DNA of 64,000 nt, taken from positions 124,001 to 188,000 of the forward strand of contig JAKFUF010000001.1 of assembly GCA_021732845.1 (NCBI GenBank), read 5' to 3'. Of the stretch, positions 6,212 through 48,605 are shown piece after piece. The DNA comes from Planctomycetaceae bacterium (lineage in GTDB: Bacteria; Planctomycetota; Planctomycetia; Planctomycetales; Planctomycetaceae). The position numbers and the translations under genes were made by a program. The notes beneath the pieces are model-generated. The model was not told the origin of the DNA. It worked only from the letters and a program-made list of their open reading frames with translations, and did no database searches. How positions within the stretch are numbered: position 1 is the first letter of the stretch; the number at the start of each line of letters is the position of its first letter.

Positions 6212-6398
6212 GCCCGAGAATTACGAGCACGGCCATGACTCGACCCACCGACGAATCAATACGGGAATTTCAATCGCTGCGCTTCGCACTCAGCGGAAAA
6301 AATCCGACCGTGGGGAATTCGCTGACGCACCTATCCCAGGAACTGGTCCCCGTGACACTTTGGGAACCAGTCCGGTGGGTGAGCCACCATTGCGTCAC

Positions 6399-6737: not shown

Positions 6738-6867
6738 GATGTTTCACTCCTGATGCTGATGAAATTGTCGTGACGAGTGGGCTGTTGCCCACGGAACAAA
6801 ACTCGCAAATCACATGCCGGGCAAGCCGTTCCGGTGTTCAATCCTCCAATCGAAAGGAAGTTTCCTG

Positions 6868-9291
<2,424 letters not shown>

Positions 9292-9399
9292 ATCGTGCGC
9301 TGGACACCGGCACGGCGACGACCGTGAAAACCGGGCGTCCGGCGGGTACAAGTGCTTTGTCGTCTGGACGGTCTTCCTCCTCCCTCTGGAAAGCTTGTC

Positions 9400-23850: not shown

Positions 23851-23954
23851 GTCGAACTGTCCGGCCCCGCTAGGTCGGCTCGGGGGCGTCGGGGAATGGG
23901 CAGCCTTTGATAGGGGAGACAACCGCGGCCAGACGGCGATATGCTGACCGGCAG

Positions 23955-25319
23955 ATGCGCAGCCGGACTCCCGCTGCTTCAACGGCACCCGCGGAAACTC
24001 CCGCCGACCGCCTGCAACAGGCGGTCGATGAGCTGGCGCAGAATGTTTCTGTCCTCACAGACATCGTCGATCAGCTTCGCGAGGACTTGAGTTGGCTGAC
24101 ATGGAATGGGCTTCCTCATCAGCCCATTCACGTATTTGTGCACCGTATGCCCCTGGCCCCGCCAGGCGAAGGAAGCAACGGTAAGCTCGACCTGACGTTC
24201 GCCACAGGCCCGGACCGCGACCCTACAGCTAAGACGCTGTCGGACGATCACGTGCGCGCGGCGGTGATCGAGGACATCGTGCAGCGTCTGGCGGAGCCAC
24301 TCGGCCAGATCGCCCACGCGCAAGCGTTCGAGGACTTTCTCCATATGAGCGTGTGCGCGCTCTCCGGGGGGCAGATGGAAGACAAATACATGGACACGGT
24401 GAAACGGCACACCGAAGGCAAGCCGGGAAAGCGTGGGTGCGACTCCATAGCGCATGCGTTCGGAACGCTCGTGAACATGATGGAGGAGACTCGCAAAGAT
24501 ATTCTCGGGGACATGTTCCAAGGAGGGATCACCTATGGTGAGGCGGGGCAATTTCTCACTCCAGAGCCAATCTGCCAAATGATGGCCACGATGACGGTCG
24601 GAGAGGATGACGGTGCGGGCAAGAAATCCGTTTGCGATCCGTGTGGCGGATCCGGGCGGATGCTGCTCGCGGTCGCAGACCTGAAACCGCATTGGGAATT
24701 TGTCGGGCAGGACGTCGATCTGGGGTGCGTCCGGATGACGGCGATCAATTTGGCGCTTCGAAATCTCTATGGATACGTGATCTGGGGCAACTCGCTCGGG
24801 CTTGAAAAGCGACTCGTCTACCATACCGGATTCAATCTCCAGGGCGTGATTCGCGAGATTCCACTGGAGAGCTGCCCTGCGCCCGTACGACAAGCAGCCA
24901 GTGAACCGGATTCGCAACCCGAACCGGCTGAGTCGGATCCCGGCCAATCAACTCAGACGTCTGCAAGACCTAGCGACGGATCTCCTCAGGGTGGATTAAC
25001 GTCACCTATACGCCATTGCGCCGCAGATCTCCCCTGTGGCATGCTCCCTACACGTCGCCAATGTCGGCGGCGCGCTTGCCTGAGCGGACCGTTCTTTCAA
25101 ATCAGGCCGGAAAGGGGACACGTTATGTTGGTCGAATTGCAGGATGGGTATTGCCGCAGGTGCGGCGGGCAGCTCCAGATCACGGGTGCGGACGACGCCA
25201 CAATGGACGTCGAATGCACAGCGTGCGGCGACGGCGACACCGTGGAGCCTGACGCCTTCAATGATGGTGGAATCACGAATTGGCCGCAGGCGATGGTCGA
25301 ATTCGGGGAGGAACTCTGA
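23955..25319 (+). CDS. Orphan N6-adenine DNA methylase-like protein, read through into a zinc-ribbon tail
   Basis: ATG 23955 is chosen over TTG 23907. The N-terminal part has a coiled-coil-like stretch (VDELAQNVSVLTDIVDQLRE). The middle holds the SAM-binding motif I of class I methylases (VCDPCGGSGRMLL), preceded by YGEAGQFLTPEPICQMM as in HsdM/N6_Mtase proteins. An NPPF/NPPY catalytic motif is not visible; after GNSLGLE the protein changes character, so activity is doubtful. The segment before residue 391 (about 24950-25120) reads like untranslated sequence, and the final 64 residues are a zinc ribbon that has its own start at 25125. There is no specificity or restriction subunit nearby. It is probably mobile-element cargo. 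Confidence 0.65.
   Translation: MRSRTPAASTAPAETPADRLQQAVDELAQNVSVLTDIVDQLREDLSWLTWNGLPHQPIHVFVHRMPLAPPGEGSNGKLDLTFATGPDRDPTAKTLSDDHVRAAVIEDIVQRLAEPLGQIAHAQAFEDFLHMSVCALSGGQMEDKYMDTVKRHTEGKPGKRGCDSIAHAFGTLVNMMEETRKDILGDMFQGGITYGEAGQFLTPEPICQMMATMTVGEDDGAGKKSVCDPCGGSGRMLLAVADLKPHWEFVGQDVDLGCVRMTAINLALRNLYGYVIWGNSLGLEKRLVYHTGFNLQGVIREIPLESCPAPVRQAASEPDSQPEPAESDPGQSTQTSARPSDGSPQGGLTSPIRHCAADLPCGMLPTRRQCRRRACLSGPFFQIRPERGHVMLVELQDGYCRRCGGQLQITGADDATMDVECTACGDGDTVEPDAFNDGGITNWPQAMVEFGEEL
25125..25319 (+). CDS. Possible separate small zinc-ribbon protein
   Basis: In-frame ATG at 25125 with AAAGGGG upstream starts a 64-residue unit MLVELQDGYCRRCGGQLQ, with a second CxxC (ECTACGDGDT). It could be translated alone rather than as the tail of the methylase. 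Four cysteines in two pairs suggest a zinc ribbon. The choice between a separate gene and a fusion is open. Confidence 0.5.
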   Translation: MLVELQDGYCRRCGGQLQITGADDATMDVECTACGDGDTVEPDAFNDGGITNWPQAMVEFGEEL

Positions 25320-26193: not shown

Positions 26194-28455
26194 TCACGAA
26201 TTCTGAGGGACGTTCCAACCGCAGTCCGATGCCATCATCCCAAGGAACCACGCCGACCGTTTGTGTTGGCCGACAATCGCCATGAATGCAGGGTAGCCTG
26301 CGGCAGTCATTCGGTCCGTGATGTTTGCAAACAGATTCAAATCATCATTGCTCGGAGCACAATCGAAACCGTCTGGATGCGAATGCCATTCGCCGATGTA
26401 CTCCAATTCGCCGGCCGTTTCAGTGCCGATGGCAGCAACGCGTTCTTCTAAGCCCTCGCACCCTCGAATGTACAAAGTGGGCTTCTCCTTACTGTCCGCA
26501 GGGGAATGGACTGTGTCCACAACATACACGGTCCTGCGCGGCAGGTCGTACATGCCGATGAGCACGCCTCCCGTCTCATTCGGCAGTCGCTCGGCACGCA
26601 ACTGCTGCAGATGATCTATGAGCCACTGGTCTGTCACCACCGTCCAGCCCCCAATCTGCGCGCGGTGTGAGGTGAAGAGCGGCACATCGACAATTGACAC
26701 TGCACATGTCGATGGATCGGCGTGCCAAACGCGGACCGCGGCGCCTTCAGACGAATAGCTCATCCGAACGGCCTGCGCCGCTATCGCGCTGTGCATGCTC
26801 ACCAAGTGGGTCGGAATCGAGAAACTCACGTCCCGGCACGACCGTGCATAGCGAGTACGTGCTTCATTCACGGCCAAGTGACCGCTGAGCGAGGGGTGGC
26901 GGATCACCGCCCGATAATACTGGGCCTCCAGTCCATCAAGCGGCATCGTTCTAATCGCGTCTTCGCGAACGCAAACAAGATCCGAACCGCGCGGATTCAG
27001 GAACAGCGATACACGACGTGCGTCACTGTGAACATCTCTCGCAAGATGCCGCGATACCGGGACCGACGCCGAGAAATCCAGAATCAACTCCGATTCTCTA
27101 AAGGCTGCGTCCACCTTTTCTTTTACTCCACCTGGCTGTAGCACGTTCGCTGGAATCGCCGTCGCTGGCTGTTCGTCCTGGAAAAACGAACTGATTGTTG
27201 CGGCGAGGACGGCGGCTTTCGGCCAGCCAATTCCGTCCGACAATAGTGCATGTCGAGCCAAGTTGTGCGGCAGCAGTTCGTCATTGTCAATGACCGTCCA
27301 ATGACCGAACCCTCCCCGCACGAGATTGAGCACGATCTGTGAACCAATCGCACCGACACCCACGGCGACCGTCTTTGCATCGACCGCATCGACACCGCTT
27401 GCTCGTGCTGCAGCCGACCGGGAGAAACTGAAGTGCGGGCGGACGACCCCGAGCGTAACGTCGGCACCCTTCAACATTTCGATCGGCGCGAGGAACGCAC
27501 CAACTTTGCCGTCACTCTTGTCCCACACGCCGATCCGTTTCCCAACCTCGTAGACTGTTTCCGTCGTCAAGAAAGCCCAGGTATCGGTAACTTCGACCGT
27601 GGCAACGTCACCCCGTTGCAGCGGAAACGCGATGACTATGATGAGGGACACGTCGAGGCACCCGTCATCCTTCCATCCCATCACGCGCTTGCGCAGTTCC
27701 ACAAGGAGATCGAATTCCTCCGTGCGGACGAATTCGCACAGTTCTTCGAGTGTCCGTGGAGCACGGCGGATGACGCCGTGATGGCGCGACCCAGCGAAAA
27801 AAAGGGACGCCGTGAACTGCAATTTCTTCGGTCGCACTTCTGGGCTCAGCGGAATCGCGATCAACGTCCCCAGGTGCTCGTCTGACGGAATTAGAACAAC
27901 ATCCAACCGAGCTGCTGCTTCGTCGGCCAATTTGATTGCCGACCAAGGAACCACAAGACTGTAGCCTGAACCTGCCACCACCTGTTCCAGCGGCTGGTCT
28001 TCGCGGTGGAGCGATCCAATTGCAGTGTCTGCGAGCCAGCGGCGAATTCGTTCGATAAACGCCGGAGCCGTCCAGCGTGCCTTCACTTCGTCCCAACTCT
28101 GGTCGTAGAGACAAAGGCTTCGAGTGTCCTCGTCGAAGGTGATGTTCAAGTGCGGAACGACGGGGAACCCTTTCCGCACGGCTAGCACTTCCGGATACGT
28201 TTCATCATCCGCCGCAAGCACCACGGCGAGCCGTTCGACCCGTCGAATGGGATTCACCACGACCTGCGGTCGTTCGACTTCAACCTCGACCACCAGAATT
28301 TCGATGGACGCACCAGCGACCTTGCGGCATTCCATAAGACGCACGAAGTCGAGCCGCCCGCCAGTAACGGCGGAGGCAATTTGGCGCGCACGCGGGATAT
28401 CGAGCGTATCAGCTTCGACAGAGTCTCCCCGCAGTTCGATGTATTCGAGAGCCAT
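26194..28455 (-). CDS. E2-E1-JAB triple fusion (bacterial ubiquitin-like conjugation/deconjugation enzyme)
   Basis: ATG 28453-28455 gives 753 residues starting MALEYIELRG; the longer frame has a low-complexity front and overlaps the MBL gene. The E2-like domain (about 1-150) has VVPHLNITFDEDTRSLCLYD, with the likely catalytic Cys at 115. The E1/ThiF domain starts near 360: AVGVGAIGSQ (nucleotide-binding glycines 366-371) and VIDNDELLPHNLARHAL. The JAB/JAMM peptidase domain is C-terminal: ETGGVLIG and EWHSHPDGFDCAPSNDD, with H691, H693, S702 and D705 intact. The three-domain order matches what I recall as the Prok-E2_A class, usually next to a metallo-beta-lactamase-fold gene, as here. The spacing to that gene is four bases. 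It probably conjugates and removes an unknown Ubl or target in an antiviral or stress operon. No Ubl gene is visible. Confidence 0.88.
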   Translation of the reverse strand: MALEYIELRGDSVEADTLDIPRARQIASAVTGGRLDFVRLMECRKVAGASIEILVVEVEVERPQVVVNPIRRVERLAVVLAADDETYPEVLAVRKGFPVVPHLNITFDEDTRSLCLYDQSWDEVKARWTAPAFIERIRRWLADTAIGSLHREDQPLEQVVAGSGYSLVVPWSAIKLADEAAARLDVVLIPSDEHLGTLIAIPLSPEVRPKKLQFTASLFFAGSRHHGVIRRAPRTLEELCEFVRTEEFDLLVELRKRVMGWKDDGCLDVSLIIVIAFPLQRGDVATVEVTDTWAFLTTETVYEVGKRIGVWDKSDGKVGAFLAPIEMLKGADVTLGVVRPHFSFSRSAAARASGVDAVDAKTVAVGVGAIGSQIVLNLVRGGFGHWTVIDNDELLPHNLARHALLSDGIGWPKAAVLAATISSFFQDEQPATAIPANVLQPGGVKEKVDAAFRESELILDFSASVPVSRHLARDVHSDARRVSLFLNPRGSDLVCVREDAIRTMPLDGLEAQYYRAVIRHPSLSGHLAVNEARTRYARSCRDVSFSIPTHLVSMHSAIAAQAVRMSYSSEGAAVRVWHADPSTCAVSIVDVPLFTSHRAQIGGWTVVTDQWLIDHLQQLRAERLPNETGGVLIGMYDLPRRTVYVVDTVHSPADSKEKPTLYIRGCEGLEERVAAIGTETAGELEYIGEWHSHPDGFDCAPSNDDLNLFANITDRMTAAGYPAFMAIVGQHKRSAWFLGMMASDCGWNVPQNS

Positions 28456-28459
28456 CGCT

Positions 28460-29593
28460 TCAGCCTGCTCGGGGTGCGGAAACGGGCGTGAGGGCGGTGG
28501 CACCGACCGACTGCGACCTTTTGACCCTCGCCTTCCGGTTGTCGACTTCGATGACGAGCGGACGAGGAGCACCCTCTCGTGGGTATTCCATCGTCACGAT
28601 GTATTCACCGTCCTTCTCACCCACGATCCGCTTGTAGTAGTTCGCGGCCTGCCGGTGGGGCGGCTGCGGGCTTTCGTCTTCATCACTCCCTTCGGTCGGA
28701 ATTGGCCAGCTCGTCGAGACGATGATGCCGCCCCGTTGAAGCTGGTCTTCAAACAACCAGGCGACGTTATCGACGGGTTCAGTCTCGTCATCGCCGCGCT
28801 CTGGCCCGAGCGTGAGGTAACTGGAGTGGTGCGGGAGTTTCCAGACATCCGCCTCCAGCCGAGCTTCATTCTTGTGGAGCTTCGTGATCGTGACGATGTC
28901 AGTCAGAGCTGTGTGATCAACGTCGGAACCGAGCATGACCTTGGTCTGGACACCAGCTACCTCCAATGTCAGTTGAACCACCAGAGAATCGCCGTTTCGG
29001 TCGATGACAGTGTTCTTGTCCTGACGCCACGCGAACGGCGAGTGCCCGAAGAATTCCGCACCGTCGACCGCAAGGGTGAAGTCTGGAGCGACCTGTCCTG
29101 CATCGGTGATAAAAGCAGAGCGCGACTCCAGCGTCAGCCGCCGGTCTTCCAGCCACTTTTTGAGCTTCGCCGGCCGTGAGAAAACCTGAATGCCGTAGCA
29201 CTTTTCCAGACGGTGTCTGGCTTCGGCCTGAATGGCCTGTGCACCAGGTTCCAGGCCAAGTCGGCTTTCCGTGATGACGTTCGCCGGCACCCACAACTCT
29301 CGGATTTTGATCCGGCCGGCCCCCTGGTATTTCTTCGCGTGGTCGAGGTAGAAGAACTCGTCGGCCTTGCACGTGTGATCGTCATCCAGATGGGTGATGG
29401 CAAGGAGATCATAATAGTCTCGCTTGACCGCATTCAGGTCGTCTCGAAGTGCCTTCGGCAGATCGATCCGCTTGTCATCGTCATCGTTAGGGTTCCGTTC
29501 GTCGGAATAGTCGAACAGTAGTTTCTTGCCATTCGCCAGATCAATGAGACAGGTGTCGGCGTTGCCGAGAGGATAGAACGTGAGCTTTGGCAT
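28460..29593 (-). CDS. ComEC-like metallo-beta-lactamase-fold hydrolase
   Basis: This 377-residue protein starts at ATG 29591-29593, with GGAG eight bases upstream. The frame extends to 29800 but that front is Arg/Ser-rich and overlaps the upstream gene. The metal site reads THLDDDHT (H68, D70, D72, H73), the H-x-D-x-D-H version of the MBL motif typical of ComEC/Rec2-type domains, and later KLPHHSS resembles their GHHGS motif. It probably hydrolyses a phosphodiester or similar bond; the substrate is unknown. It lies four bases before the E2-E1-JAB gene and after the membrane-protein gene on the same strand, so these three form an operon. Confidence 0.85.
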   Translation of the reverse strand: MPKLTFYPLGNADTCLIDLANGKKLLFDYSDERNPNDDDDKRIDLPKALRDDLNAVKRDYYDLLAITHLDDDHTCKADEFFYLDHAKKYQGAGRIKIRELWVPANVITESRLGLEPGAQAIQAEARHRLEKCYGIQVFSRPAKLKKWLEDRRLTLESRSAFITDAGQVAPDFTLAVDGAEFFGHSPFAWRQDKNTVIDRNGDSLVVQLTLEVAGVQTKVMLGSDVDHTALTDIVTITKLHKNEARLEADVWKLPHHSSYLTLGPERGDDETEPVDNVAWLFEDQLQRGGIIVSTSWPIPTEGSDEDESPQPPHRQAANYYKRIVGEKDGEYIVTMEYPREGAPRPLVIEVDNRKARVKRSQSVGATALTPVSAPRAG

Positions 29594-29621
29594 CGTGGTC
29601 TCCGGGGAAGGAAATGGACGG

Positions 29622-30395
29622 TTATTTCTGGTCAGCGGACTCGGGTTGCGGCTTCTTGTCGCCCGAAACGGATGGCGAATCGGGGAGCATCGCGACCCCG
29701 AACAACGACTCCGCATATCGGTCGGCGCAGCGGCGCACATATCGCGGGAGTTCCGACGCGACCAAGATCGAAGCCACGAGGACCGTCGCCGACACCGCAA
29801 GGGCCGCGTATGGTTTCAATCCGAGGTGGAACGCAATACCGCTGACAGCAAGACAGATGCCTGCGAGCGCGACCCACAGGAACCGGACCGCGTACAAGTT
29901 TCGGGCGAATCCGTACTCTTCGTTGTGAGACTGGAGAATCGCCGCGTTCGGTTTGTTGCGGAGTACATAGCGAAGTTGCCGCGTCGCCTCACCAATTGTT
30001 TGGTCAACGCTCGCCTCCGTCGCTCCTTCTGGAACCGATGCCGGGATCGTCATCCCAGTGAGGCGCTTGATCGCTCCCCGCCACTTCGACTTCTGCTGAT
30101 CCGAGCAACTCGTGTCATTCGGCCGTAACCACCGCGTGGTCGGCGAGCCTCCCCAGGAATCCCACAGGGATTCTTCGATTGCACGGCCGCGTGCGCGGGC
30201 ATAATGACCGAGGACGATGGCGGCGAGAAACTCGACGCCGACTGCTGCCCCTGCCGCCGTGTACCATGCCGAAAGTTCGTGGATCAGTGCTCCCGCCGTC
30301 AGCGCCGGTCCGATCGCGATCAACAAGCCAGGCAGAAGCCGGGCCTTGCGTTCGTAACAGTCGCTGAGAGCGAAGAATTGGAGGATGAGTCGCAT
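29622..30395 (-). CDS. Membrane protein with two pairs of TM helices, first gene of the E1/E2/JAB operon
   Basis: ATG 30393-30395 gives 257 residues (MRLILQFFALSDCYERKARL). The frame stays open to 30641, but that would run across the operator and into the divergent HTH gene. The hydrophobic pairs are near residues 20-62 (LLPGLLIAIGPALTAGAL; AAGAAVGVEFLAAIVLG) and 172-215 (VRFLWVALAGICLAVSGIAF; ALAVSATVLVASILVA), separated by a charged cytosolic-looking region, with a polar C-terminal tail. I do not recognise the family; a SLATT-like or pore-forming effector is possible. Position as the first gene with MBL and E2-E1-JAB suggests it is the membrane effector or anchor of that system. Confidence 0.68.
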   Translation of the reverse strand: MRLILQFFALSDCYERKARLLPGLLIAIGPALTAGALIHELSAWYTAAGAAVGVEFLAAIVLGHYARARGRAIEESLWDSWGGSPTTRWLRPNDTSCSDQQKSKWRGAIKRLTGMTIPASVPEGATEASVDQTIGEATRQLRYVLRNKPNAAILQSHNEEYGFARNLYAVRFLWVALAGICLAVSGIAFHLGLKPYAALAVSATVLVASILVASELPRYVRRCADRYAESLFGVAMLPDSPSVSGDKKPQPESADQK

Positions 30396-30429
30396 CGAGT
30401 TTTCGGATTGGGTGGAGTTTGGCGTATAG

Positions 30430-30479
30430 CAATAACGAACATATCTGTTCGTCACTGATGCGTCAACAATAACGAACGA
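30430..30479. promoter_or_regulatory. Operator palindrome over the promoter of the E1/E2/JAB operon
   Basis: Between the divergent start codons (30395 and 30521) lies the inverted repeat ACGAACA-TATC-TGTTCGT at 30435-30452, plus a third half-site AACGAAC at 30471-30477 following the repeated word AATAACGAAC. On the minus strand TTGACG (30466-30461) and TATGTT (30443-30438) are spaced 17 bases and form a good sigma70 promoter whose -10 lies in the palindrome. A bound repressor would block transcription. The natural candidate is the HTH protein encoded at 30521. Confidence 0.62.
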
Positions 30480-30520
30480 AGAATCTTGCTCTGGCTGACA
30501 GACCTGATACACTGGCGAAT

Positions 30521-30961
30521 ATGAGCGAAACAGCGAAACGACCCGATGAACCGGAAAACAATCTTGCGTCCAGATTGCGCAAACTCCGTGACGACAGGGG
30601 TTTATCGCTCGACGAAGTGGCCGGCCGGGCGAAGATTTCAAAGACGTACCTGTGGGAATTGGAACGAGACACGGCCGGCACGAAAAAGCCGTCTGCCGAT
30701 GTTCTTCTCCGGATCGCCCAGGCCCTTTCGACCACTCTCGCTGAGTTGCTGGCGCTTGCGACGGTCAAAGCGCCTGAGGGACCGGTTGAGATTCCGCCGT
30801 CCTTGAGCGAGTTCAGGGACCGGATGGGCGATCAGCTCTCCACGCAGGATCTCCAGGAACTCGCAGCGATGAAGTTCCGCGGCACGCAACCGCAGACCGT
30901 CGATGAGTGGCACCAGCTTTATTTCGTCCTCATGAACACCGCCCGGAGGCGACCGACATGA
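30521..30961 (+). CDS. XRE-family HTH repressor (CapH-like position)
   Basis: This 146-residue DNA-binding protein has a clear XRE helix-turn-helix at about residues 15-70 (LASRLRKLRDDRGLSLDEVA, then AKISKTYLWELE), followed by an acidic helical tail. It is divergent from the E1/E2/JAB operon, with the operator between them, and its stop overlaps the start of the ImmA/IrrE gene by four bases (ATGA). By analogy with HTH/peptidase pairs such as CapH-CapP, ImmR-ImmA and IrrE-DdrO, it probably represses the divergent operon until cleaved. That mechanism is inference from arrangement. Confidence 0.85.
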   Translation: MSETAKRPDEPENNLASRLRKLRDDRGLSLDEVAGRAKISKTYLWELERDTAGTKKPSADVLLRIAQALSTTLAELLALATVKAPEGPVEIPPSLSEFRDRMGDQLSTQDLQELAAMKFRGTQPQTVDEWHQLYFVLMNTARRRPT

Positions 30962-31971
30962 CGCAACCGACGCGGTCTACGCAGGCACTCATCGACGAAC
31001 TTATCCGTTCGACGGGATGTCGGGACGCCCCAGAGGCCATTCGTGCCAAGGCAAAGGAACTGATTGATCTCCACGTCGCATCATTCGGTGAGCCGTCGCT
31101 TCCGATCAGCGTCGACGTGCTCGCGAGTCTTCAGGGAATCGGCCGGAGCGACGAAGCGCCCGTTCACAGTCCAGATGCGGAACTCATTCCCGACGGTCAC
31201 GGCGGTATGACCATGCGGGTGAATGCGGATCGTCCCGAGACACGGCAGCGGTTCAGCGTCGCGCATGAAATTAGCCACACGTTTTTCCCGAACTATACGT
31301 CGAAGGCATGGTGCCGCACTGATGCGCGCTATCGGGACAGGGCGAACGCCGAAGACTTCCTCGAAATGCTGTGCGACATTGGCGCTGCCGAATTACTGTT
31401 CCCGCAGCCGTGGTTCGGCCGCGATGCGGCAGTCGTCACTGATGCCACTGGCATCATCACTCTCGCATCCACGTATCATGCCTCGCGTGAAGCGGCGATC
31501 CGCCGGTATGCGGAGACTTCGCCGGAGTCGGTCGCCGCGGTGTTTTTCACCTGGAAACTGAAGCCCACGCAGAAGGGGATTGCGGGAAATCCGAACCAGA
31601 CCAATCTCTTCGGCATCAGTGCGGAAGACGCCTTGCGCGAGGCACTCCGGCTTCGAATTGAATACTCGGTCACGAGCGAATCCTTCAAAGCCGAAGGGCT
31701 CTTCCTTCCCAAGGACAAATCGGTCGAGAACGACGGCCCAATTTATCGTGCCGCATCGACCGGACTTCCGGTGGATGACCAGTGCCACCTCGACTTAGGT
31801 CAGGCGTCGGGAACGTATCGCGTGTCCGCGATCCCGCTCTGGACAGCGGAAGATCAACTCGGAGCCACAGGCGAGAATACCGTTGCCGCTCTTCTCCGTC
31901 CCGTATCAGTCCGCAGGCCGGCAAAGAAGCGCGGCGCGGGCAGTGGACCGACGTTGTTCGGTACGGATTGA
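30958..31971 (+). CDS. ImmA/IrrE-family zinc metallopeptidase (CapP-like)
   Basis: This 337-residue protein starts at ATG 30958, overlapping the HTH stop; an upstream in-frame start at 30907 lies inside that gene. The zinc site HEISH is at 103-107 (RQRFSVAHEISHTFF), with acidic residues in the following helix (LEMLCDIGAAELLFP) supplying the third ligand, as in ImmA/IrrE. The C-terminal ~150 residues form an extra domain that could sense a signal. Members of this family cleave a partner HTH repressor after phage infection or DNA damage; the coupled HTH gene is the likely substrate. Confidence 0.87.
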   Translation: MTQPTRSTQALIDELIRSTGCRDAPEAIRAKAKELIDLHVASFGEPSLPISVDVLASLQGIGRSDEAPVHSPDAELIPDGHGGMTMRVNADRPETRQRFSVAHEISHTFFPNYTSKAWCRTDARYRDRANAEDFLEMLCDIGAAELLFPQPWFGRDAAVVTDATGIITLASTYHASREAAIRRYAETSPESVAAVFFTWKLKPTQKGIAGNPNQTNLFGISAEDALREALRLRIEYSVTSESFKAEGLFLPKDKSVENDGPIYRAASTGLPVDDQCHLDLGQASGTYRVSAIPLWTAEDQLGATGENTVAALLRPVSVRRPAKKRGAGSGPTLFGTD

Positions 31972-32533: not shown

Positions 32534-33933
32534 ATGGAATCTCGCCTTTGTCCCTCAGCGCGTCAGCAAGTGAAGGTGATCCGAAAGCAGTTCCTTCAGG
32601 CGGACGAGCAGCCGTTTGAGGACTTGATCAGCGAGTCCATGGTGCAGGAGCTGCTTCCGCTTGGTATCCGTTGGAATGAGCGGTTCTATTCGCCGCTGAC
32701 GGCCTCCTGTTGTTTCTCTGGCAGTGCCTTGCCAAGTCCTCATGCCGCGAGGCGGTCGCCAAGCGGGTGGCCCAATGCGTGGCTGTCAAGCAGAAGCCGT
32801 GTTCTTATGCCACCGGCGGGTACTGTGTCGCGCGGACCAGACTGCCGGAAAACCTGTTCAAGGGGCTGGCCCGGCAGGTGGGCCGGAGGCTTCACAAGAA
32901 GGCTTTGGAAGCGTGGCTCTGGAAGGGGCGAAGGGTCAAGGTGGCCGACGGTTCGACGGTGAGCATGCGCGACACCGTGAAGAATCAGCAGGCGTATCTG
33001 CAGGGAGCCAACCAGAAAGCCGGCGTTGGGTTTTCCATCGCACGCATTCTGGTCATCTTTTCGCTGGCCGTGGGGACGGCGCCGGAGCTGGCCATCTGCC
33101 CCTGCAATGGGAAGGGGCAGAGCGAGCTGGCAATGTTCCGCCAGCTCCTCGACACGTTTGAACCCGGCGACGTGCTGCTGGCCGACCGCATGCACTGCAC
33201 ATGGTTCACCGTGACGGCGCTGATGGCACGGAAGGTGGATTTCGTGGTGCGGCTGCACTCCAGCCGCGAGTGCGACTTCCGTCGCGGCCGACGTCTGGGC
33301 AGGGACGACCACATCGTGCAGTGGACGAAGCGACGGCGACCGCAGTGGATGAGCCGGGGCGACTATGACGCCCTGCCGGCCTGCATTGAAATCCGCGAGG
33401 CGCGGCTCCGAGTCACCATTTCCGGATTTCGGGGAAAGACCCTCGTCGTGGCCACTTCGCTGCTCGACCCGGACATGCATTCGCGTCTGGAACTGACGGG
33501 TCTGTACCGCCAAAGGTGGCATGCGGAACTCAATCTGAAATCGTTGAAGGTCACTCTGGGAATGGATGTGCTCCGCTGCGAGACGCCGGAGATGGTCCGC
33601 AAGGAACTTTGGGCGAATCTGTTGAGCTACAACCTGATCCGCAGCGTGATGGCCCAGGCCGCGATGACCCACGGCCGCGTGCCACGCACGCTGAGTTTCG
33701 CCGCCTCACTCCAACTCCTCCGGGCGTTCCAACCAAAGTTGCAACAGGCGACACTTCACGAGGTTCTTCACATCGCCACGGCGCTCTTGAACGCCATCGT
33801 CCAACACCGCGTGGGTCATCGCCCCGACCGCGTGGAACCCCGAAAGCGAAATCGTCGTCCAAAACCATTCCCCCACCTCCAGCAACCACGGCAGGAGGCA
33901 AGAAAACGTTTGGTGAGAAACCCTTGTGGCTGA
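32534..33933 (+). pseudogene. IS4-type DDE transposase, disrupted by a frameshift
   Basis: The N-terminal part (from ATG 32534: VKVIRKQFLQADEQPFEDLI, ending GIRWNERFYSPLTA) and the rest (from about 32704: LLFLWQCLAKSSCREAV to 33933) are in different frames. Adding one C at about 32704 would give a continuous FYSPLTALLLFLWQ. The DDE motifs are present: VADGSTV, LLADRMHCTWF, and YRQRWHAELNLKSLK, matching the Y-R-E-K signature of IS4. The single-base deletion probably inactivates it unless the site supports slippage. I could not identify the IS ends. Confidence 0.75.
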
Positions 33934-34670: not shown

Positions 34671-35909
34671 ATGTCGACGCGCCATCGCCAGCGTGTTTGT
34701 CAGCACGCCTGTGCCAGATCAATTTCTTGCCTCCTGGAAAGGTATTCGGAATTTCTGAGTTCCCAGAGATATTCCACCCGACGTCACCGTCGCTATGTCC
34801 GGGCCGTTGAGCATTTTGGACGGTGGTTAGGACGGAGGCACATTAACAGACCGCTGATTCAGGAATTCCTCAACCAAGGACTGGCCGATTGTCAGTGCCC
34901 GGGAGTCAGCCGCGACCGGCGGTTGAATCGCGCCGCATTGAATCACTTGCTGGCGATGCTGGGACTGGATCATGAACCGCCCGTTTGTCATCGAAGTGGC
35001 CTGGTCAAGCTATTGCGGAGCTACGAAGCGCATCTAGTCAATGCGAGAGGACTGGGACCGGATACCATTCGCCGCCACTTGAAGTACACCCAAGACATGC
35101 TCTGCCGTTTCGGTATTCGGCAAGAGTCTCAGTTCAAACATTGGACGCCCGAAGCAATTGAAGAGGATGTCGCGCGGGAAGGACGCTCCGCACCAGGACG
35201 AGGGCGGAATGTTGGATGGTGTGCTCGATCGTTTCTGCGGTTTCTCCAGCAGGTAGGCCTGATAGATCGAGACCTCGCCGCCGCCGTTCCAACTGTCGCA
35301 CGCTGGCGACTGGCGTCACTGCCGACGACGCTGAGCGAAACTGAAATTGAACGTTTGGTCGAGGCAGCGGACCTGACGACAGCATCAGGTCAACGCGACC
35401 GTGCCATCGTTCTGTGCCTGAGCGAATTGGGATTACGCGGAGCGGATGTGGCGAAGTTGCAAATCGACGATGTCGATTTCACCGCCGGTGTCTTGCGGTT
35501 GAGCCAGCGGAAGGAGCGACAGGCTGACGTTTTTCCTCTGACGCCACGGTTGCGTTCGGCATTGCGTGCCTATCTTCGGAGATACCGTCCCGCTGGTGCT
35601 TCTTCTTCCGTTTTCGTTCGGCACCATGCTCCGCTGGGCAAGCCGCTCACTTCCGCCGGCATCTGCCAAGTGATTTTGCGTCTGGCGGATCAAGCCGGAT
35701 TGCGTCACCGCGTGAGTGGCCCCCATGCGCTGCGGCGCAGTCTGGCCAGCCGGATGATCAACACCGGTGCCACGCTGAAACAGATTGCCGATTTTCTGGG
35801 ACACACGTCGATCGATACCACAACGCTCTATGCCAAAGTCGATCTCACCACGCTTTCACGAGTGGCGTTGCCCTGGCCTGCGAAAGAAAGAGAGAAGGTG
35901 CGACCATGA
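34671..35909 (+). CDS. ritA: Tyrosine recombinase, first of trio (RitA-like)
   Basis: This 412-residue site-specific recombinase has a SAM-like N-terminal DNA-binding domain (about 110-200) and a catalytic domain. The catalytic residues are visible: Arg in LCLSELGLRGADVAKLQ, H-x-x-R in GPHALRRSLASRM, His in ADFLGHTS, and the nucleophile Tyr in DTTTLYAKV. GGAAAGGAGAG lies just before the ATG. Its stop overlaps the start of the second gene. Confidence 0.9.
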   Translation: MSTRHRQRVCQHACARSISCLLERYSEFLSSQRYSTRRHRRYVRAVEHFGRWLGRRHINRPLIQEFLNQGLADCQCPGVSRDRRLNRAALNHLLAMLGLDHEPPVCHRSGLVKLLRSYEAHLVNARGLGPDTIRRHLKYTQDMLCRFGIRQESQFKHWTPEAIEEDVAREGRSAPGRGRNVGWCARSFLRFLQQVGLIDRDLAAAVPTVARWRLASLPTTLSETEIERLVEAADLTTASGQRDRAIVLCLSELGLRGADVAKLQIDDVDFTAGVLRLSQRKERQADVFPLTPRLRSALRAYLRRYRPAGASSSVFVRHHAPLGKPLTSAGICQVILRLADQAGLRHRVSGPHALRRSLASRMINTGATLKQIADFLGHTSIDTTTLYAKVDLTTLSRVALPWPAKEREKVRP

Positions 35910-36859
35910 AACGCCAGACGATGGCACGCCGGGTGAAGGATTACCTGCAGTTGAGGCGGGCACTGGGTTTTCAATTGCGATCTCAGGGTGAGATGCTTTT
36001 GCAATTTGCAAGGTATCTGGATGGCGCGGGACATCGGGGTCCACTGACGACTGAAGCGGCACTGCGCTGGGCCAATCGTCCCCACTTATCGCGGAGTTCT
36101 CGCGCGAAGCGGCTGTCGGCGGTCCGCTGTTTCGCCCGGTATCTGGCAGCGAGAGACGGGCAGACGGAAGTGCCGGAGCGGTACCTTGCGCCGAAGGTCT
36201 GCTTTCGAAGAAGGCCGCATCTCTACAGCCCGAGCGACCTGGGACAATTGTTGGCTGCGACCGAGCGGCTCGGGCCTTCATATCCTTTGAAGAGGCTGGT
36301 TTACCGCACATTGTTCGGATTACTGGCATGCACTGGCTTGCGAGTTTCCGAAGCTCTGAAACTCAAGTCGGATCACGTCGATCTGCAACGTGGGATCCTG
36401 CGAATTGAACAAACGAAGTTCAAAAAATCTCGTCTGGTGCCGCTGCATCCGACGGCCACGCACGCTCTGCGCCGCTACGCGCAGGCACGCTATGGCCGCA
36501 TCGACGTGCGTGACGATAGCCCCTTCTTTGTCGACAAAAGGGGAAACCGCCTGGCGTATTGCGCAATCCGCTGGAACTTTGAAAGGTTGCGCGAAATGTT
36601 GGAGTGGAAGCAGGGCAACGGCGACATGCCTCGTCCCCGCATTCATGATTTGCGTCACACGTTTGCCTGCCAGCGGCTCCTCTCTTGGTATCGCCAGGGC
36701 CAGGATGTCCAGCACCTGATCGCCGCGCTCTCGACTTATCTCGGACACGGCAAAGTCACTGACACTTATTGGTATCTGACCAGCACACCGGAACTGCTGG
36801 CAATTGCAGGCGTCCGCTTTGAACAGTTCGCAGGCACCGGGAAAGGAGAGGACACATGA
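35906..36859 (+). CDS. ritB: Tyrosine recombinase, second of trio (RitB-like)
   Basis: This 317-residue recombinase has the catalytic Arg in ACTGLRVSEALKLKSDHV, H-x-x-R in IHDLRHTFACQRLL, His in YLGHGKVTDTYWYL, and the Tyr following it. The N-terminal core-binding domain begins MKRQTMARRVKDYLQLRRAL. Overlaps of four bases at both ends show translational coupling to the other two recombinases. Confidence 0.9.
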   Translation: MKRQTMARRVKDYLQLRRALGFQLRSQGEMLLQFARYLDGAGHRGPLTTEAALRWANRPHLSRSSRAKRLSAVRCFARYLAARDGQTEVPERYLAPKVCFRRRPHLYSPSDLGQLLAATERLGPSYPLKRLVYRTLFGLLACTGLRVSEALKLKSDHVDLQRGILRIEQTKFKKSRLVPLHPTATHALRRYAQARYGRIDVRDDSPFFVDKRGNRLAYCAIRWNFERLREMLEWKQGNGDMPRPRIHDLRHTFACQRLLSWYRQGQDVQHLIAALSTYLGHGKVTDTYWYLTSTPELLAIAGVRFEQFAGTGKGEDT

Positions 36860-37938
36860 AGACGACTAGGTCCGTCAGGTCCAAGGCGACCAGGTCCACA
36901 AAGTCGAAAGCGGACCGGCCAGCAACAAGTGTGTCGCTCGCACCGAACATTCCCCTCGGCCCGATCCTGCAGCGTTACTTCTGCGAGTATCTGGTCAGCC
37001 AGCGCAATCTGAGCCAGAACACGATTGCCAGTTACCGCGACACGTTTCGGCTGCTGCTGGAGTTCCTGAAGCTCCGGTACCGCATTTTGCCCGATCGAGT
37101 CTGCGTCGAGGATCTGGACGCGACACACGTGCTCGCATTTCTGGATGATCTGGAGCGACGGCGCGGCAACGCCGTTCGCTCGCGCAATGCCCGCCGGGCG
37201 GCGATGCGCGGCTTCCTTCGTTATGCCGCAGCGTCCGAGCCGCAACTGCTGTCAGTGGCCCAACGCGTGCTGGCCATTCCCACGAAGCGGTTTGAGCGAG
37301 CCGCGGTGGGCTACCTGACACGAAAGCAGATGCAGGCCATTCTCGACTCGCCCGATGTTGCCACCTTTTCCGGACGTCGCGACCGAGTTCTGCTTCTGCT
37401 GATGTACAACACCGGCGCGCGGGCATCGGAGATTGCGGACCTGCAGGTTCAAGATGTTTCTTTGGAATCGCGAGGCTCAGTGCGTATTCACGGAAAAGGC
37501 CGAAAGAAACGATCCATGCCGCTGTGGCAGAAGACCGTCAGACTGTTGCGTTCCTGGCTGAAGGAACTTCATGGCGTGCCGGATTCGCCCTTGCTGCCCA
37601 ATGTTCACGGCCAGCGGCTGACTCGTTACGGGATTGCCCAACGTTTGCAATACACGGTGCATCGTGCATTCTCCGACGAGCCATCACTTCAGTCGTTACG
37701 AATCTCTCCGCACCTGATTCGTCATACGACGGCGATGCACCTGCTTCAATCGGGCGTGGACCTTTCGGTGATCGCCATGTGGCTTGGCCATGAGTCGACA
37801 CAAACGACCCATCAATACCTCGATGCAGACCTGGATTCCAAAATGCGGGCACTGGCCTGTCTGGACCCGCCCCAGCGCCTAGGAACATCATCGCGCCGCC
37901 ACGACGATCGCATCGTGGAGTTCCTCAATGGTCTGTGA
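36856..37938 (+). CDS. ritC: Tyrosine recombinase, third of trio (RitC-like)
   Basis: This 360-residue recombinase has a basic N-terminal tail (TTRSVRSKATRSTKSKADR). The catalytic Arg is in YNTGARASEIADLQVQDV, H-x-x-R in SPHLIRHTTAMHLL, His in WLGHESTQTTHQYLDAD, and the Tyr there. It ends 62 bases before the right terminal repeat. Confidence 0.9.
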   Translation: MKTTRSVRSKATRSTKSKADRPATSVSLAPNIPLGPILQRYFCEYLVSQRNLSQNTIASYRDTFRLLLEFLKLRYRILPDRVCVEDLDATHVLAFLDDLERRRGNAVRSRNARRAAMRGFLRYAAASEPQLLSVAQRVLAIPTKRFERAAVGYLTRKQMQAILDSPDVATFSGRRDRVLLLLMYNTGARASEIADLQVQDVSLESRGSVRIHGKGRKKRSMPLWQKTVRLLRSWLKELHGVPDSPLLPNVHGQRLTRYGIAQRLQYTVHRAFSDEPSLQSLRISPHLIRHTTAMHLLQSGVDLSVIAMWLGHESTQTTHQYLDADLDSKMRALACLDPPQRLGTSSRRHDDRIVEFLNGL

Positions 37939-38216: not shown

Positions 38217-39410
38217 ATGCCTGACTCTACAGGTTCCGCCACCGGTCCGCGCGTCATCGGCCGGCTGAGTTTGACGCACATCCTTCTATTGGCGGTGTTC
38301 GCCGCCCTGTTACTTCTGATTCTGCTTCTGGCGATTCCCCGCAGCGCCGCGACCACAAATTCATCGCCGGGATCAAAGCAGAAGCAAGTGGTGAATCTCG
38401 GTCAGCAAAAGGCCCGGACCGAACTTCCGGCATCCGCCCGCGTGAGCGAAACCGAACTTATTCCCGACACCCGGCGGGTCCAGGAGGTGCTGCGAGCGGG
38501 GAGTACCTACCGAACGGTCCAGAAGGGCAGCCTTGTTGTGAAGGGCCATGACCCGGACTGGACATCTGATGAAGTCGTCAAGCTGGCTCTCGTGGCGGAA
38601 CAGATTGCCAGCCGGACGATCGAAAGCAACGACGGCGTGACGCTGGTCGAGGTGCGGACCATTGAAACGGCAAGAGTTATCAAGATTCTGTGTGCGACCA
38701 AGGATTTTCACATTGAACTGGGAGATCCCGATCTCTCAATCCTCAAAGCGCTGGATGAGGTGGCACCCGGCGAGGCGGTCGAGGTCGCGGATCCCGTCAC
38801 GCTCCTGCAGGCAGTCCTCAAGCCGGGGACGGATGTCACACGGGGCACTTGGAAGGTAGTTGCCAGTGTCGACCAACTCTCCGGCAAGAAGATTCGGCTG
38901 ACGCATACGAACGGAATTGGCGTCACGAACGTTGAACCTGTCAACTGCAGCCTCACTGAGGAAGAGGTCGAACTGTTCTTCCGCGCGGATCCGCTGGCGG
39001 ACATGCGCTTCCTGCCGGATCTGGGACTCAAGCCGGGTGAATCATTCGTCGTGCCCGGTTACGCTTTCGCCCAGTTGCTGGACCCGGAACTTCATCCGCA
39101 TGTCGAAGGCAACCTCACCATCACGCGTGGAAGTGATCTGCGGCAGGACGGCCATCAGATGGCACTGCTGAAGATCGATTCCAGCAAGAGCGACCTGCAG
39201 TTGTCCGCTGCAGATTCCCAACAGAAAGCGTTTGGCCGACTGACGCCAAAGGGAACACTGCTCTTCGATCTCGACGGTCAGTTCGTTCGTCAGGCCACGC
39301 TTTCCGGTGAAATCCTCATTCGCTCGATTCCCAAGGACCATGCGCTCGGCAATTCGAGCCCCGTCAGCCAGCCCGAAACCTCCATGACTTATTCCTGCCA
39401 AAAACTATGA
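38217..39410 (+). CDS. Membrane-anchored protein of unknown function, first gene of kinase/FHA-ABC operon
   Basis: The ATG at 38217 has TTTTGGAG upstream and gives 397 residues starting MPDSTGSATGPRVIG. One membrane helix at about 20-42 (ILLLAVFAALLLLILLLAIP) is followed by a long extracytoplasmic region without recognised motifs (for example WTSDEVVKLALVAEQIASRT, FFRADPLADMRFLPDLGL). The frame is open further upstream into the RIT flank, which is not coding. Its stop overlaps the kinase start (ATGA), so it is co-translated with the kinase and likely works with it. The RIT element sits directly upstream and may have displaced the promoter. Confidence 0.75.
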   Translation: MPDSTGSATGPRVIGRLSLTHILLLAVFAALLLLILLLAIPRSAATTNSSPGSKQKQVVNLGQQKARTELPASARVSETELIPDTRRVQEVLRAGSTYRTVQKGSLVVKGHDPDWTSDEVVKLALVAEQIASRTIESNDGVTLVEVRTIETARVIKILCATKDFHIELGDPDLSILKALDEVAPGEAVEVADPVTLLQAVLKPGTDVTRGTWKVVASVDQLSGKKIRLTHTNGIGVTNVEPVNCSLTEEEVELFFRADPLADMRFLPDLGLKPGESFVVPGYAFAQLLDPELHPHVEGNLTITRGSDLRQDGHQMALLKIDSSKSDLQLSAADSQQKAFGRLTPKGTLLFDLDGQFVRQATLSGEILIRSIPKDHALGNSSPVSQPETSMTYSCQKL

Positions 39411-42400
39411 CCACCTCACCTTCGAATCCACCGGACAGCCAGTCACTTTTCGGTCAACAGACCATTCCCGGCCAGCGGACCTCCAATGTGGGAGTTGCGC
39501 AACCAATCACCGTTCAGATTCCCGGCTACGAAATCCGGCGGCAAATCGGTGCCGGCGGCATGGGAGTCGTCTTTGAAGCGGTACAGCTGTCACTCAACCG
39601 TCGCGTGGCGGTCAAGGTACTTTCTCCGAGCCTTTCCCAAGACAAGGAACTGATTCAGCGGTTTGAACAGGAGGGCCTGATTCTCGGACGCTTGTCACAT
39701 CCCCATATTGTGCAGGTTGTCGAGCGCGGCCAGGCTGCGGGCCAGTTGTTCATTGTTCTGGAGTTTGTGGCTGGAACAAGTGGTTTCCCTGTCACCCTGC
39801 AACACTATCTGGAACGGGCTCCGATCGATCCCGTCGAAGTCAGGCGGTTGTTTCTCGAAGTTGCCCAGGCGCTGGCTCATGCCCACTCCCAGGGAATTGT
39901 CCACCGCGATGTCAAACCGTCCAACGTGCTGTTGGATCAGCACGGGCACGTCAAAGTTACCGACTTTGGGATCGCCCTTGTCGTTGATTCCGACTCCCGA
40001 TTGACCAGGCCCGCGGCAGCATTGGGCACTCTGGAGTACATGGCACCGGAGCAGCGTCAGAATCCCGCCGGCGCAGATCCACGGAGCGACATCTACTCTC
40101 TGGGTGTCATGCTGTACGAGCTGCTGACGGGCCACCTGCCAGTTGGTCTGTTCCTGATGCCCGCCGACGAATTGCCGGGCCTGGCCAATGAATGGAATGC
40201 GCTCCTGGGGCGGTCGCTGCAGTCAAAGCCTGACCAGCGGTTTCAAACAATGGCCGAATTTATCCGAGAACTGCAGGAGATTCCTGTTGTTCCAGCAACC
40301 ACATCGGCACCCCCGACTCCAAAGTTGTCCTGGGCGAAGGACGTCACGCTGCCGGAGCCACTGCCTCGGAAATATCCCTGCACAGATTGCGGCCGGGCCT
40401 GCGGCGAGGAAGACATTTACTGTCCCGGTTGCAGCCAGCCGCTCGTGTGGGACTGTCCTGCCTGCGACCGCAAGGGACAAGTCGCCACGCGGTTCTGCGC
40501 GGGGTGCGGTCGTGATCTGCAAAAGGCCGTCCGTGCCCAGTCCTTTCTGGACCGAGCCCTCAAAATCTGCCATGAGCTGGCTTCCTGCGCTGACCCTCTT
40601 GCCGCCGGGGCGAAGGCCCAGAACGCCTGGCAGACTTGGAAGACGGCGACCGCCCTGAGTGCGGATCTGCCAACGCTCGTGGCCGCTACAGACGACTTCA
40701 AGAGCGCCATCGCGTCAACACTGTGGACGGCTGCACGGGATCTGGCCCGCCAGCAGCAGTGCGGCCTGGCCAGTCACTATTGCCAGCTCATCTTGATTGC
40801 CTTGCCGACTCACGAGGCCGCCCGCGATTTGCTGGACCGATTGGCAGATCTGCGGGAAGAGTGGCTCAGCAAGGCCGCAGCATTCCGTAGCAACGGACAG
40901 ATCTCCCAGGAACTCAAGACGCTCCTTAATCTGGAGCAGAAATTCCCGGAGGACGCCGTCATCAAAGCTCTGCGCGTCACCTGTGAAGCGAAGCTGAGTT
41001 CTGTGAAATCGATCGTCCGCGAGCAGATCCCCGCTCTTCAGCAGGAGCGGCGGCTTGTCGAACTGCTGAAGGTCCTGGAGGGAATTCGCCACAGCGGAGT
41101 GGCCGTGGAAGGGCTGCAGGATTTTGAGGCAACCCAGCGGCAGCGACTGCAGCGGGCGGAATCTCTTTTGAACACGGCGCGAGCTGCCATTGACCAAGGG
41201 GCCTTCGCACGGGCGATTCAGGCGATGGATGCGGCAAGGGATCTGGTCACAGATCACGCCGCCCTCAATCAGCTCCACGAAACCTCGACTGATCGACAGC
41301 GCCAGGCCACCATTCTGCGGGACCAGCTTCAGCAGCATCTAAAAAATCGCCGCTGGTTCCGCGCTCGAAGCTGTTTGAAGAAGATGGAACGCGGACGACT
41401 GGGCGGACGCATACCGGAAAGCATCGCCCAGCAACTGACCGCACAGGTATTGAAGGCGAACACCTACCTCCGCCTTGGACTGTGGGCACTGCTAAGTTGT
41501 GTGGTTGTCGTGACATGCTCTCTCACCTCAGTCCTGATTCAAGGTCCGCTGGCCAATTTTGTCCGCGGCGTGTTCCCCGCAATGAAGGCCGTTCCTGACG
41601 CAGAGATGTTGACCGCCTTGTCAGGCACCGCGCTGCTGGCATTCAATGTGCCGGCACTCTCGCTGCTCCAATTGCCGCTGAAAGAGCCAACGCTGACAGG
41701 AAATCATCTGCCGCGAGTGCTGCTGCGGACCCTGATCGCTGTAACCGTCGCCGCAGTTCCGATCCTGGCCGTGCTTGCGGTTCGGGATGCGGCCCTGCCA
41801 AGAGCATCTCCCAAGATCCAGCAGGATATGCAGGAGTTCCTCGGCCTGCTGGGGCCGTTCGCGGGACGCTTGGGACTGCTCCTCGTTGGCTCGCTGCCCC
41901 TGGGTCTGGTTGCGGCAGATCTGGCGGTGCGCTGGTCCGATGAACTGGTCAAGGACCGAAAGTTCCATCGGACATGGCCCACTGTACTGGGCATGGTGGG
42001 CACCAGCGGAATGTCGCTGTTGATGAACTACGAGCCGCAGCAGGTGTCGATGGCCAGCTTCCTGCTGACGCTGTCTGGCCTGACCCACATCACCGGAATT
42101 TGCCGATTCCGATCGGTGCTCCTCGGGATCCTGCCGGCCATCGCCTTTAACGCAATAGCCGGTGCGTGGACTACCAACACGTGGGGAAGCATGACGACGT
42201 TCGCAATGGCGGGAACCCTGTTTTTTGCTCTCACCGCAATCTGGGAACGCTCCTCAAACATTTTCGCGTTCACCGGGCTGGTCCTGCTCGCCGGGCTGGC
42301 AGCCATGGTTCTTCCAACTCACGCCATGGCGGTGATGTCCGTCTGGATTCTCCTGCTTGGCGAACTGTTCCCGGACCTGCGGCGGGAAGCCGACTGCCGT

Positions 42401-42454: not shown

Positions 42455-42486
42455 TCATCTCAAAATATCACCCGGAGCCGATCTCC

Positions 42487-46785: not shown

Positions 46786-47046
46786 ATGCCGTCGCCCCCT
46801 GAGTTTCTGTCAATTCCGCAGTTCGTAGCGCTCAGCGGTTTGTCTCCAAGTACCGTCCGCCGTCGCGTGCGGGACCGCTCGCTGGCGTCGTATCAGCCGG
46901 GCGGCAAGGGAAAAAAAGTCTTGATTCCGCGCGACGCGCTGGACCGGCCGACCGTCCCCGCGACGAACGAAGTCGCCCCATCCCAGCCCCCGAAACAACC
47001 GCTCGCCACACGCCGCGGTCCCCGACCGGGATGGCAGCAGCGCTGA
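46786..47046 (+). CDS. Excisionase-like small HTH protein
   Basis: The ATG at 46786 gives 86 residues, [20 protein letters not shown]. It contains a MerR/excisionase-type helix-turn-helix ([19 protein letters not shown], then [10 protein letters not shown]), as in proteins that direct integrase to excision. The Pro/Arg-rich tail is short. It ends 35 bases before the integrase start on the same strand, the usual xis-int order. Confidence 0.7.
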
Positions 47047-47081
47047 GCGGTCTCATCCTCACACACACTCAGAGAGGCATC

Positions 47082-48518: not shown

Positions 48519-48605
<87 letters not shown>

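Follow-up and report, generated by a model that had tools for sequence, protein, structure and literature searches.

A conserved Arg-Ala-Gly tail on the MBL-fold hydrolase of a planctomycete 6A-MBL locus suggests a conjugated modifier

Results

Organization of the locus

The locus described here lies in a 64,000-nucleotide stretch of Planctomycetaceae bacterium (GenBank assembly GCA_021732845.1, contig JAKFUF010000001.1, positions 124,001 to 188,000), hereafter called the window. Its minus strand, from 30395 to 26194, encodes a transmembrane (TM) protein, then a ComEC-like protein with a metallo-beta-lactamase (MBL) fold, then a fusion of ubiquitin-type E2, E1 and JAB modules. A helix-turn-helix (HTH) gene and an ImmA/IrrE peptidase gene are divergent from this operon (Table 1). 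Comparison of related loci showed that the MBL protein has a predicted flexible tail, ending in Arg-Ala-Gly (RAG), which co-varies with the E2-E1-JAB fusion.

A first-pass annotation, made from the sequence without database searches, had listed these same five genes, and all were present. The stop codon TGA of the MBL gene is followed by four bases and then by the ATG of the E2-E1-JAB gene, the spacing given in that annotation. The coupling of the divergent HTH and ImmA genes was also borne out, with the HTH stop and the ImmA start overlapping by ATGA at 30958-30961. Starts proposed by the open reading frame (ORF) finder, GTG 28572, TTG 29800, TTG 30641 and GTG 30907, gave proteins that were too long. 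Neither the MBL nor the TM protein matched a Pfam family at cut-off.

Table 1 Features of the locus, in window coordinates.
Feature	Position	Strand	Description and basis
E2-E1-JAB triple fusion	26194..28455	-	753 aa; ATG at 28455; Pfam, NCBIfam, residue conservation
ComEC-like MBL-fold hydrolase, proposed conjugated modifier	28460..29593	-	377 aa; NF058524, AF2 model
Disordered C-terminal tail of the MBL protein, residues 361-377	28463..28513	-	ends Arg-Ala-Gly (28463-28471)
Four-TM protein (TM4 family), proposed membrane effector	29622..30395	-	257 aa; ATG at 30395; hydropathy, AF2
Candidate promoter and candidate CapH operator	30430..30477	-	repeats over promoter-like site
HTH repressor, CapH-like	30521..30961	+	PADLOC capH, Pfam HTH_31
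ImmA/IrrE (M78) metallopeptidase, CapP-like	30958..31971	+	PADLOC capP, Peptidase_M78, HEISH in translation

The E2-E1-JAB fusion and the MBL protein

Pfam profiles placed all three conjugation modules in one chain: Prok-E2_A at residues 93-211 (1.1e-28), ThiF at 398-504 (6.9e-12) and Prok-JAB at 653-775 (3.9e-12) of the 792-aa ORF. Both core proteins scored far above the curated cut-offs of the 6A-MBL class (NCBIfam, version of June 2026). The fusion reached 648 bits against NF058523 ('6A-MBL_cap2_3', cut-off 320), and the adjoining MBL protein 381 bits against NF058524 ('6A-MBL_enzyme', cut-off 220). In a search of the PDB with a profile of the fusion family, the top match was Cap2 (7to3, 2.5e-19).

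The same two-gene core is row 6a of Iyer et al. (2006, PMC1779556), described in the available part of that paper as a triple-module E2-E1-JAB protein that in most operons stands beside a specialised metallo-beta-lactamase. The first-pass annotation had correctly placed E2-E1-JAB fusions next to MBL genes in a described, barely studied class. Its further statement, that a polymerase-beta nucleotidyltransferase is the usual neighbour, is ruled out for class 6a, as this enzyme belongs to the sister class, row 6b (PMC1779556, available part). A Pfam scan of 15 window ORFs, three operon genes included, gave no match to a nucleotidyltransferase.

For comparison, a set of 92 loci was assembled from 80 genome-contig loci, 10 plasmid loci, L003 (a further genome of the window's phylum) and the window itself; the handles are L003 and L032-L121, and L001 was dropped as a duplicate of the window. 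The 80 genome loci were the best 80 of 274 matches, ranked by similarity to the window MBL protein. Numbered from the ATG at 28455, the E2 cysteine C115 and the JAMM residues H691, H693, S702 and D705 were found where the first-pass annotation had put them; the E1 cysteine is C540 and the JAMM glutamate E627. C115 was kept in 86 of 86 relatives, C540 in all 85 with a letter at that column, and the five JAMM residues in all 84 with letters.

The MBL protein carries the motif H-x-D-x-D-H. Its ligands D72, H73, D224, H255 and H256 were kept in all 92 loci, H68 in 91 of 91 with a letter at the position and D70 in 90 of 91. An AF2 model (mean pLDDT 91.5) had an MBL fold and no beta-grasp. The best solved relative was the MBL domain of ComEC (9ic4; Z 21.5, rmsd 3.7, 258 aligned), which also came first in a profile search (8.1e-8). 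No match to the MBL protein was found among 50,697 phage records.

A RAG tail at the MBL C-terminus

A first alignment of 11 MBL proteins showed a conserved R-A-G closing a variable linker. Across the 92 loci, one of which has its MBL gene cut by a contig end, exact terminal RAG was found in 65 of 91 readable C-termini and RAG followed by one to six further residues in another 15, so that 80 of 91 had RAG at or within six residues of the end. Seven more ended in other [RK]xG forms (RVG, RGG, KAG, KVG, RQG), and any [RK]xG was present in 88 of 91. The three MBL proteins without a RAG-like tail were L062, L105 and L072. L062 and L105 look like frameshifts, since in each of them a different frame encodes RAG at the corresponding position. 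L072 had no RAG-like tail in any frame, and its 14.8 kb yielded no E2-E1-JAB. Clustering at 70% identity left 52 representatives: 43 with RAG and 6 with other [RK]xG (each plus zero to six residues), and three without, namely the frameshifted L062, L072 and the cut L094.

The tail follows the folded body. Residues 361-373 of the AF2 model had pLDDT below 50, which is consistent with a flexible tail ending in Gly, and the NCBIfam model of the MBL protein ends ahead of it. Linker columns held about 1-2.5 bits, compared to 3.6-4.3 bits for the last three columns; these columns were anchored on [RK]xG, so that invariance of R/K and G is by construction, but that of Ala (79 of 88) is not.

As controls, 31 other MBL-fold ORFs were taken from genomes of the same phylum as the window, and none had [RK]xG within six residues of the end; they were weak MBL-fold matches (11-55 bits), three of them from one locus and one cut by a contig end. 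Terminal RAG was also absent from 161 other proteins of the same operons (57 patatin, 17 TM4, 20 second-MBL, 4 TMb, 4 TMc, 15 WYL, 23 ImmA and 21 HTH). Background ORFs of the loci were taken from stop to stop, so many are not genes. Of those with at least 200 aa, 0 of 1323 ended in RAG and 8 had it within the last nine residues; with at least 100 aa, the numbers were 15 and 47 of 4577.

The tail tracks the conjugating enzyme

Eleven more distant plasmid loci were added, all with an E2-E1-JAB match beside the MBL gene (that of L122 cut by the record end). Ten of them had other tails: five HG, one HGAS, one TQG, one YGAEAI and two GFGR. The eleventh, L132, ended in RAGVSNQ. Six loci on viral contigs had four RAG tails, one HGAS and one VGFGD.

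Seven loci bridged the two groups (L039, L040, L132, L134, L135, L136 and L138). With the last 25 residues removed, their MBL bodies scored at least 290 bits against each of seven HG-type MBL proteins and at most 136 bits against any MBL of the main RAG group. Their E2-E1-JAB proteins showed the reverse, with 169-553 bits to the enzymes of the main RAG group and at most 120 bits to the same seven HG types (up to 130 bits against L129, which is outside these seven). All seven bridge tails were RAG, four of them with three or four further residues common to their kin.

Trees were built from 54 of the 109 loci (the 92 plus L122-L138), hand-picked for spread; L122, cut by the record end, was excluded. 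In the MBL tree, the bridge loci joined the HG-type MBL proteins. The enzyme tree grouped them with L037 and L038 within the RAG clade, although the HG rows were trimmed to 17-29% of the columns there and a long-branch warning was given. When full chains were used, the HG types once more formed a single clade of their own. The tail thus appears, from these comparisons, to follow the conjugating enzyme and not the MBL body. A tail rewritten with a change of partner enzyme is what would be predicted for a tail recognised by E1, E2 or JAB.

The bridge type with a WYL regulator and TMb was found on E. coli and Klebsiella plasmids (L132, L039), and 31 of 5426 E. coli genomes gave a match. One relative of the operon is carried by plasmid pSE11-2 of E. 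coli SE11. A tblastn search with E2-E1-JAB hit 169 Klebsiella plasmid records, though CBASS Cap2 may account for some of the 317 matches.

The TM protein and the effector slot

Hydropathy predicted four TM segments in the window's TM protein, in the two-plus-two layout of the first-pass annotation, and its AF2 model had a pLDDT of 85.9. That annotation had seen the protein as taking the place of a nucleotidyltransferase. Comparison of the 92 loci rules this out: the protein, termed TM4, occupies an effector slot, and in most relatives a patatin takes that place.

Family HMMs (hidden Markov models) built from the same loci gave, at the score thresholds used, 57 loci with patatin, 18 with TM4, four with TMb and three with TMc; one of the patatin loci also has TMc. 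None of these effectors was detected at thresholds in ten loci, five of them with little downstream sequence. Two loci counted as 'none' nevertheless have candidates: L036 a divergent patatin and a three-TM protein, L045 a four-TM protein. Patatin and TM4 never occurred together in the 92 loci, compared to about 11 expected if independent (Fisher p 8e-10, inflated by shared ancestry). Patatins lay downstream on the same strand in 51 of 57 cases and TM4 downstream in 16 of 18, standing first only in the window and L042.

TM4 is a recurrent family in a slot mostly filled by patatin phospholipases (a patatin representative matched PF01734), and this exchange suggests a role for TM4 as membrane effector, possibly a membrane-damaging one. 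On viral contig L137, one 1359-aa ORF (539-4615) contains Prok-E2_A, ThiF, Prok-JAB and Patatin in this order and adjoins an MBL gene with a GFGD tail; the phospholipase is thereby linked to the conjugating enzyme.

A second ComEC-like MBL gene (PADLOC PDC-M48B) was present in 19 loci, often after the effector (e.g., L118:12530-13465, L109:6249-7067). RAG ends were found in 0 of 20 of these second MBL proteins and looser [RK]xG ends in 3 of 20.

The HTH/ImmA switch

PADLOC identified the HTH gene as capH (1.4e-16) and the ImmA gene as capP (2.3e-22); in Pfam, they matched HTH_31 and Peptidase_M78 (5.8e-9), respectively. Together with the NCBIfam name 'anti-phage 6A-MBL', these matches support the first-pass proposal of a locus for ubiquitin-type conjugation that has an HTH/ImmA switch. 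Across the 92 loci, the recognised regulators were HTH plus ImmA in 21, ImmA alone in 8, HTH alone in 5 and WYL in 15.

The 125-base gap between the divergent genes contains a promoter-like site, TTGACG-17-TATGTT (30466-30438), which is near chance by count (one found, 0.4 expected). Two copies of CAATAACGAAC overlap it, as does the inverted repeat ACGAACA-GATA-TGTTCGT, and similar operator-region letters were found in L042, the one near relative. The repeats fit a candidate site for the CapH repressor.

According to the available part of PMC13373217, CapP is activated by single-stranded DNA and cleaves CapH, CapH/CapP and CapW respond to DNA damage, and CapH plus CapP or CapW stand beside Bub operons. 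The pair in the window resembles CapH and CapP in its family matches, its divergent placement and the repeats over the promoter-like site; here it stands beside a 6A-MBL operon.

Discussion

The MBL protein as probable modifier

Because a conserved Gly-terminal tail tracks the E1-E2-JAB enzyme, we consider it likely, by analogy with known conjugation systems, that the MBL protein is conjugated through its RAG tail within an immune operon of this design. The first-pass annotation had reported no ubiquitin-like protein (Ubl) at the locus. There is indeed no beta-grasp Ubl, but the Gly-terminal RAG tail of the MBL protein had been overlooked. Its suggestion that conjugation controls the membrane or MBL effector comes close to the present reading in the MBL part, without the mechanism.

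The proposed mechanism would run as follows. E1 would adenylate the tail glycine, and Cys540 and then Cys115 would carry the MBL protein as thioesters, with target proteins or lipids as the final acceptors. JAB would trim precursors with residues after RAG, and remove the MBL protein from its targets as Cap3 does for cGAS; ubiquitin precursors are likewise trimmed. Attachment would place or activate the ComEC-like hydrolase, which may act on nucleic acid, or make or remove a small signal. Damage to the membrane would then come from the four-TM protein, which a patatin can replace, and the infected cell would die or stop growing. From their family membership, CapH would be expected to keep the operon off and CapP to cleave CapH on DNA damage.

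A fuller version, which we put forward tentatively and at rather less than even chances, takes the MBL protein as both an active metallo-hydrolase and a modifier, the second without a beta-grasp fold after the cGAS of CBASS (cyclic-oligonucleotide-based antiphage signalling system), in what would be a cyclase-less analogue of CBASS. Each E1-E2-JAB clade would read its own tail code (RAG, HG or others), with the MBL tail rewritten on a change of partner. Once conjugated, the MBL protein would be licensed to produce or remove a signal, and this signal would release the interchangeable membrane effector (patatin or four-TM).

Conjugation of the MBL protein would mean that a second enzyme fold, unrelated to the first, has been turned into a ubiquitin-like modifier. 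This would suggest a general rule in bacteria, with the Gly tail placed on the signalling enzyme itself, and the tail code of E1 would reside in three swappable residues.

Several observations weigh against these proposals. Looser [RK]xG ends were also present in other operon proteins (8 of the 161) and in E2-E1-JAB proteins (4 of 86), so only the full RAG is distinctive, and the MBL protein of L003, from the window's own phylum, has RFG plus three residues (PRFGRCR). Approximately unbiased (AU) tests rejected forcing either tree to agree only moderately (p 0.0168 and 0.0197, on quick trees), long branches were flagged in the enzyme trees, and the bridge loci may represent one or two partner swaps, not seven. 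TM4 matched no family at cut-off in Pfam, NCBIfam or PADLOC and gave no confident fold match (best Foldseek E 0.44), although such misses prove nothing by themselves, and four hydropathy segments were found in 9 of 17 members at the threshold used, the rest having two or three. The exclusivity of patatin and TM4 is partly a matter of shared ancestry, and the rule of one effector has exceptions: L036, one locus with patatin plus TMc and, outside the 92, L134 with TM4 plus TMb. Finally, 43 of the 92 loci had no recognised divergent regulator within 3 kb, and CapHP is thus not part of the core. Neighbour variation was nonetheless ordered, and not the random variation that would speak against a functional unit.

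Comparison with known systems

In type II CBASS, the C-terminal Gly of cGAS is bound by Cap2 as a thioester, and Cap2 conjugates cGAS. Conservation at the cGAS end is confined to the last residue (Gly or Ala) and to operons that encode both Cap2 and Cap3 (PMC10097602, available part). The likeness to the present locus extends to Cap2 as the closest E2-E1, a JAMM peptidase, a neighbouring partner enzyme with a conserved C-terminal Gly, and CapH/CapP or WYL regulators. Patatin or TM effectors, as in the 6A-MBL slot, are also common to both. Unlike type II CBASS, the partner here is an MBL-fold hydrolase instead of a nucleotide cyclase, E2, E1 and JAB form one chain, and the tail motif is R-A-G.

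The Bil and Bub systems share bacterial E1/E2/JAB-type conjugation next to regulators. They use small Ubl modifiers, whereas no Ubl gene was annotated next to the core in the 6A-MBL loci read. The C-terminal MBL domain of ComEC has the same fold as the present MBL protein, which is a separate chain with a RAG tail and lacks the ComEC membrane part.

The window locus belongs to a known class that has barely been studied, and the RAG tail and the reading of the MBL protein as probable modifier appear to be new. The available part of PMC1779556 contains no mention of a RAG tail or of a TM4/patatin slot. A literature search that covered neither bioRxiv nor most subscription papers found, among the papers listed, no report naming 6A-MBL or conjugation of its MBL protein, so that one may exist.

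Alternative explanations

The module might serve metabolism or stress repair instead of anti-phage defence, with conjugation acting in DNA-damage repair. The DNA-damage response of CapH/CapP and CapW would suit this, and related Bub operons were not shown to protect against phage (both PMC13373217, available part). Against it stand the exchangeable phospholipase and TM neighbours, the occurrence on plasmids and the curated name 'anti-phage 6A-MBL', and we regard it as unlikely.

The MBL protein could also be a substrate or effector of the enzymes, with an unlinked Ubl from elsewhere in the genome as the modifier, and with RAG serving E1 or JAB only as a docking peptide. In principle, JAB might cleave or dock at the tail. 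The annotations of the regions read show no Ubl gene next to the core, in a survey that neither folded hypothetical ORFs nor looked for a Ubl in trans. Among solved E1 structures Cap2 is the closest, and it acts on the C-terminus of its operon partner (PMC10097602, available part). In addition, a Gly at or near the chain end, the disordered linker and the short extensions suit an E1-activated tail, whereas a docking peptide need not be terminal. Such a role seems improbable to us.

Conjugation of the MBL protein has further to be weighed against activation of its tail as a sulfur carrier or adenylate (ThiS/MoaD-like), without ligation to targets. The E1 belongs to the ThiF family, whose namesakes serve sulfur transfer, but a sulfur carrier needs neither the E2 Cys115 nor the JAMM centre, both kept in every relative that could be read (86/86 and 84/84); this makes the alternative very unlikely.

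The faintest of the alternatives, a RAG end that is a by-product of DNA-level constraint such as a ribosome-binding site for the coupled downstream gene, would fit the tight coupling of the genes (88 of 90 gaps lie between -41 and +12 bases) and the enrichment of the arginine codons AGG and CGG in the tail, yet is rejected on account of codon variety, with 44 different 9-mers encoding RAG in 80 loci and Ala and Gly codons almost free. Four of the five annotated HG/HGAS-type operons (L126, L127, L128 and L131) also overlap E2-E1-JAB, yet keep HG; in L123 the genes are 74 bases apart. From the codon variety, selection at the MBL chain end is judged to act mainly on amino acids.

Neighbourhood and further observations

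An ORF of about 76 aa lies directly upstream of the MBL gene, on the same strand, in eight loci (L043:4069-4299; annotated DUF2188 in L034). Beside the MBL gene of L072, an ORF (7941-10036) contains a stretch, CPCQSGRRFKDCC, resembling SEC-C and another that resembles E2 by eye only (no Pfam match for a 156-aa piece); TMb lies upstream, and this locus is perhaps a reduced variant.

Second ubiquitin-type systems may cluster near 6A-MBL loci. Upstream of the locus, L112 has another JAB-like protein (6115-7056, just under the Pfam cut-off) and L086 a small protein that resembles E2 by eye (4296-4688, no Pfam match).

In the window, three recombinase-type genes lie in a row at 34671-37938; those at 34671-35909 and 36856-37938 match Phage_integrase, and the one at 35906-36859 is alike by eye. 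Since these and an IS4-type transposase gene (32710-33933) are adjacent, the operon sits by mobile elements. Another integrase gene (47031-48293) adjoins tRNA-Ser (48520-48605), a possible integration site. On the other side of the operon, an N6-methylase ORF like type I M subunits (23907-25319, partial family match) is possibly the remnant of a restriction system. Further away, at 39407-44892, a Ser/Thr kinase gene is followed by an overlapping gene for an FHA-ABC-transporter protein.

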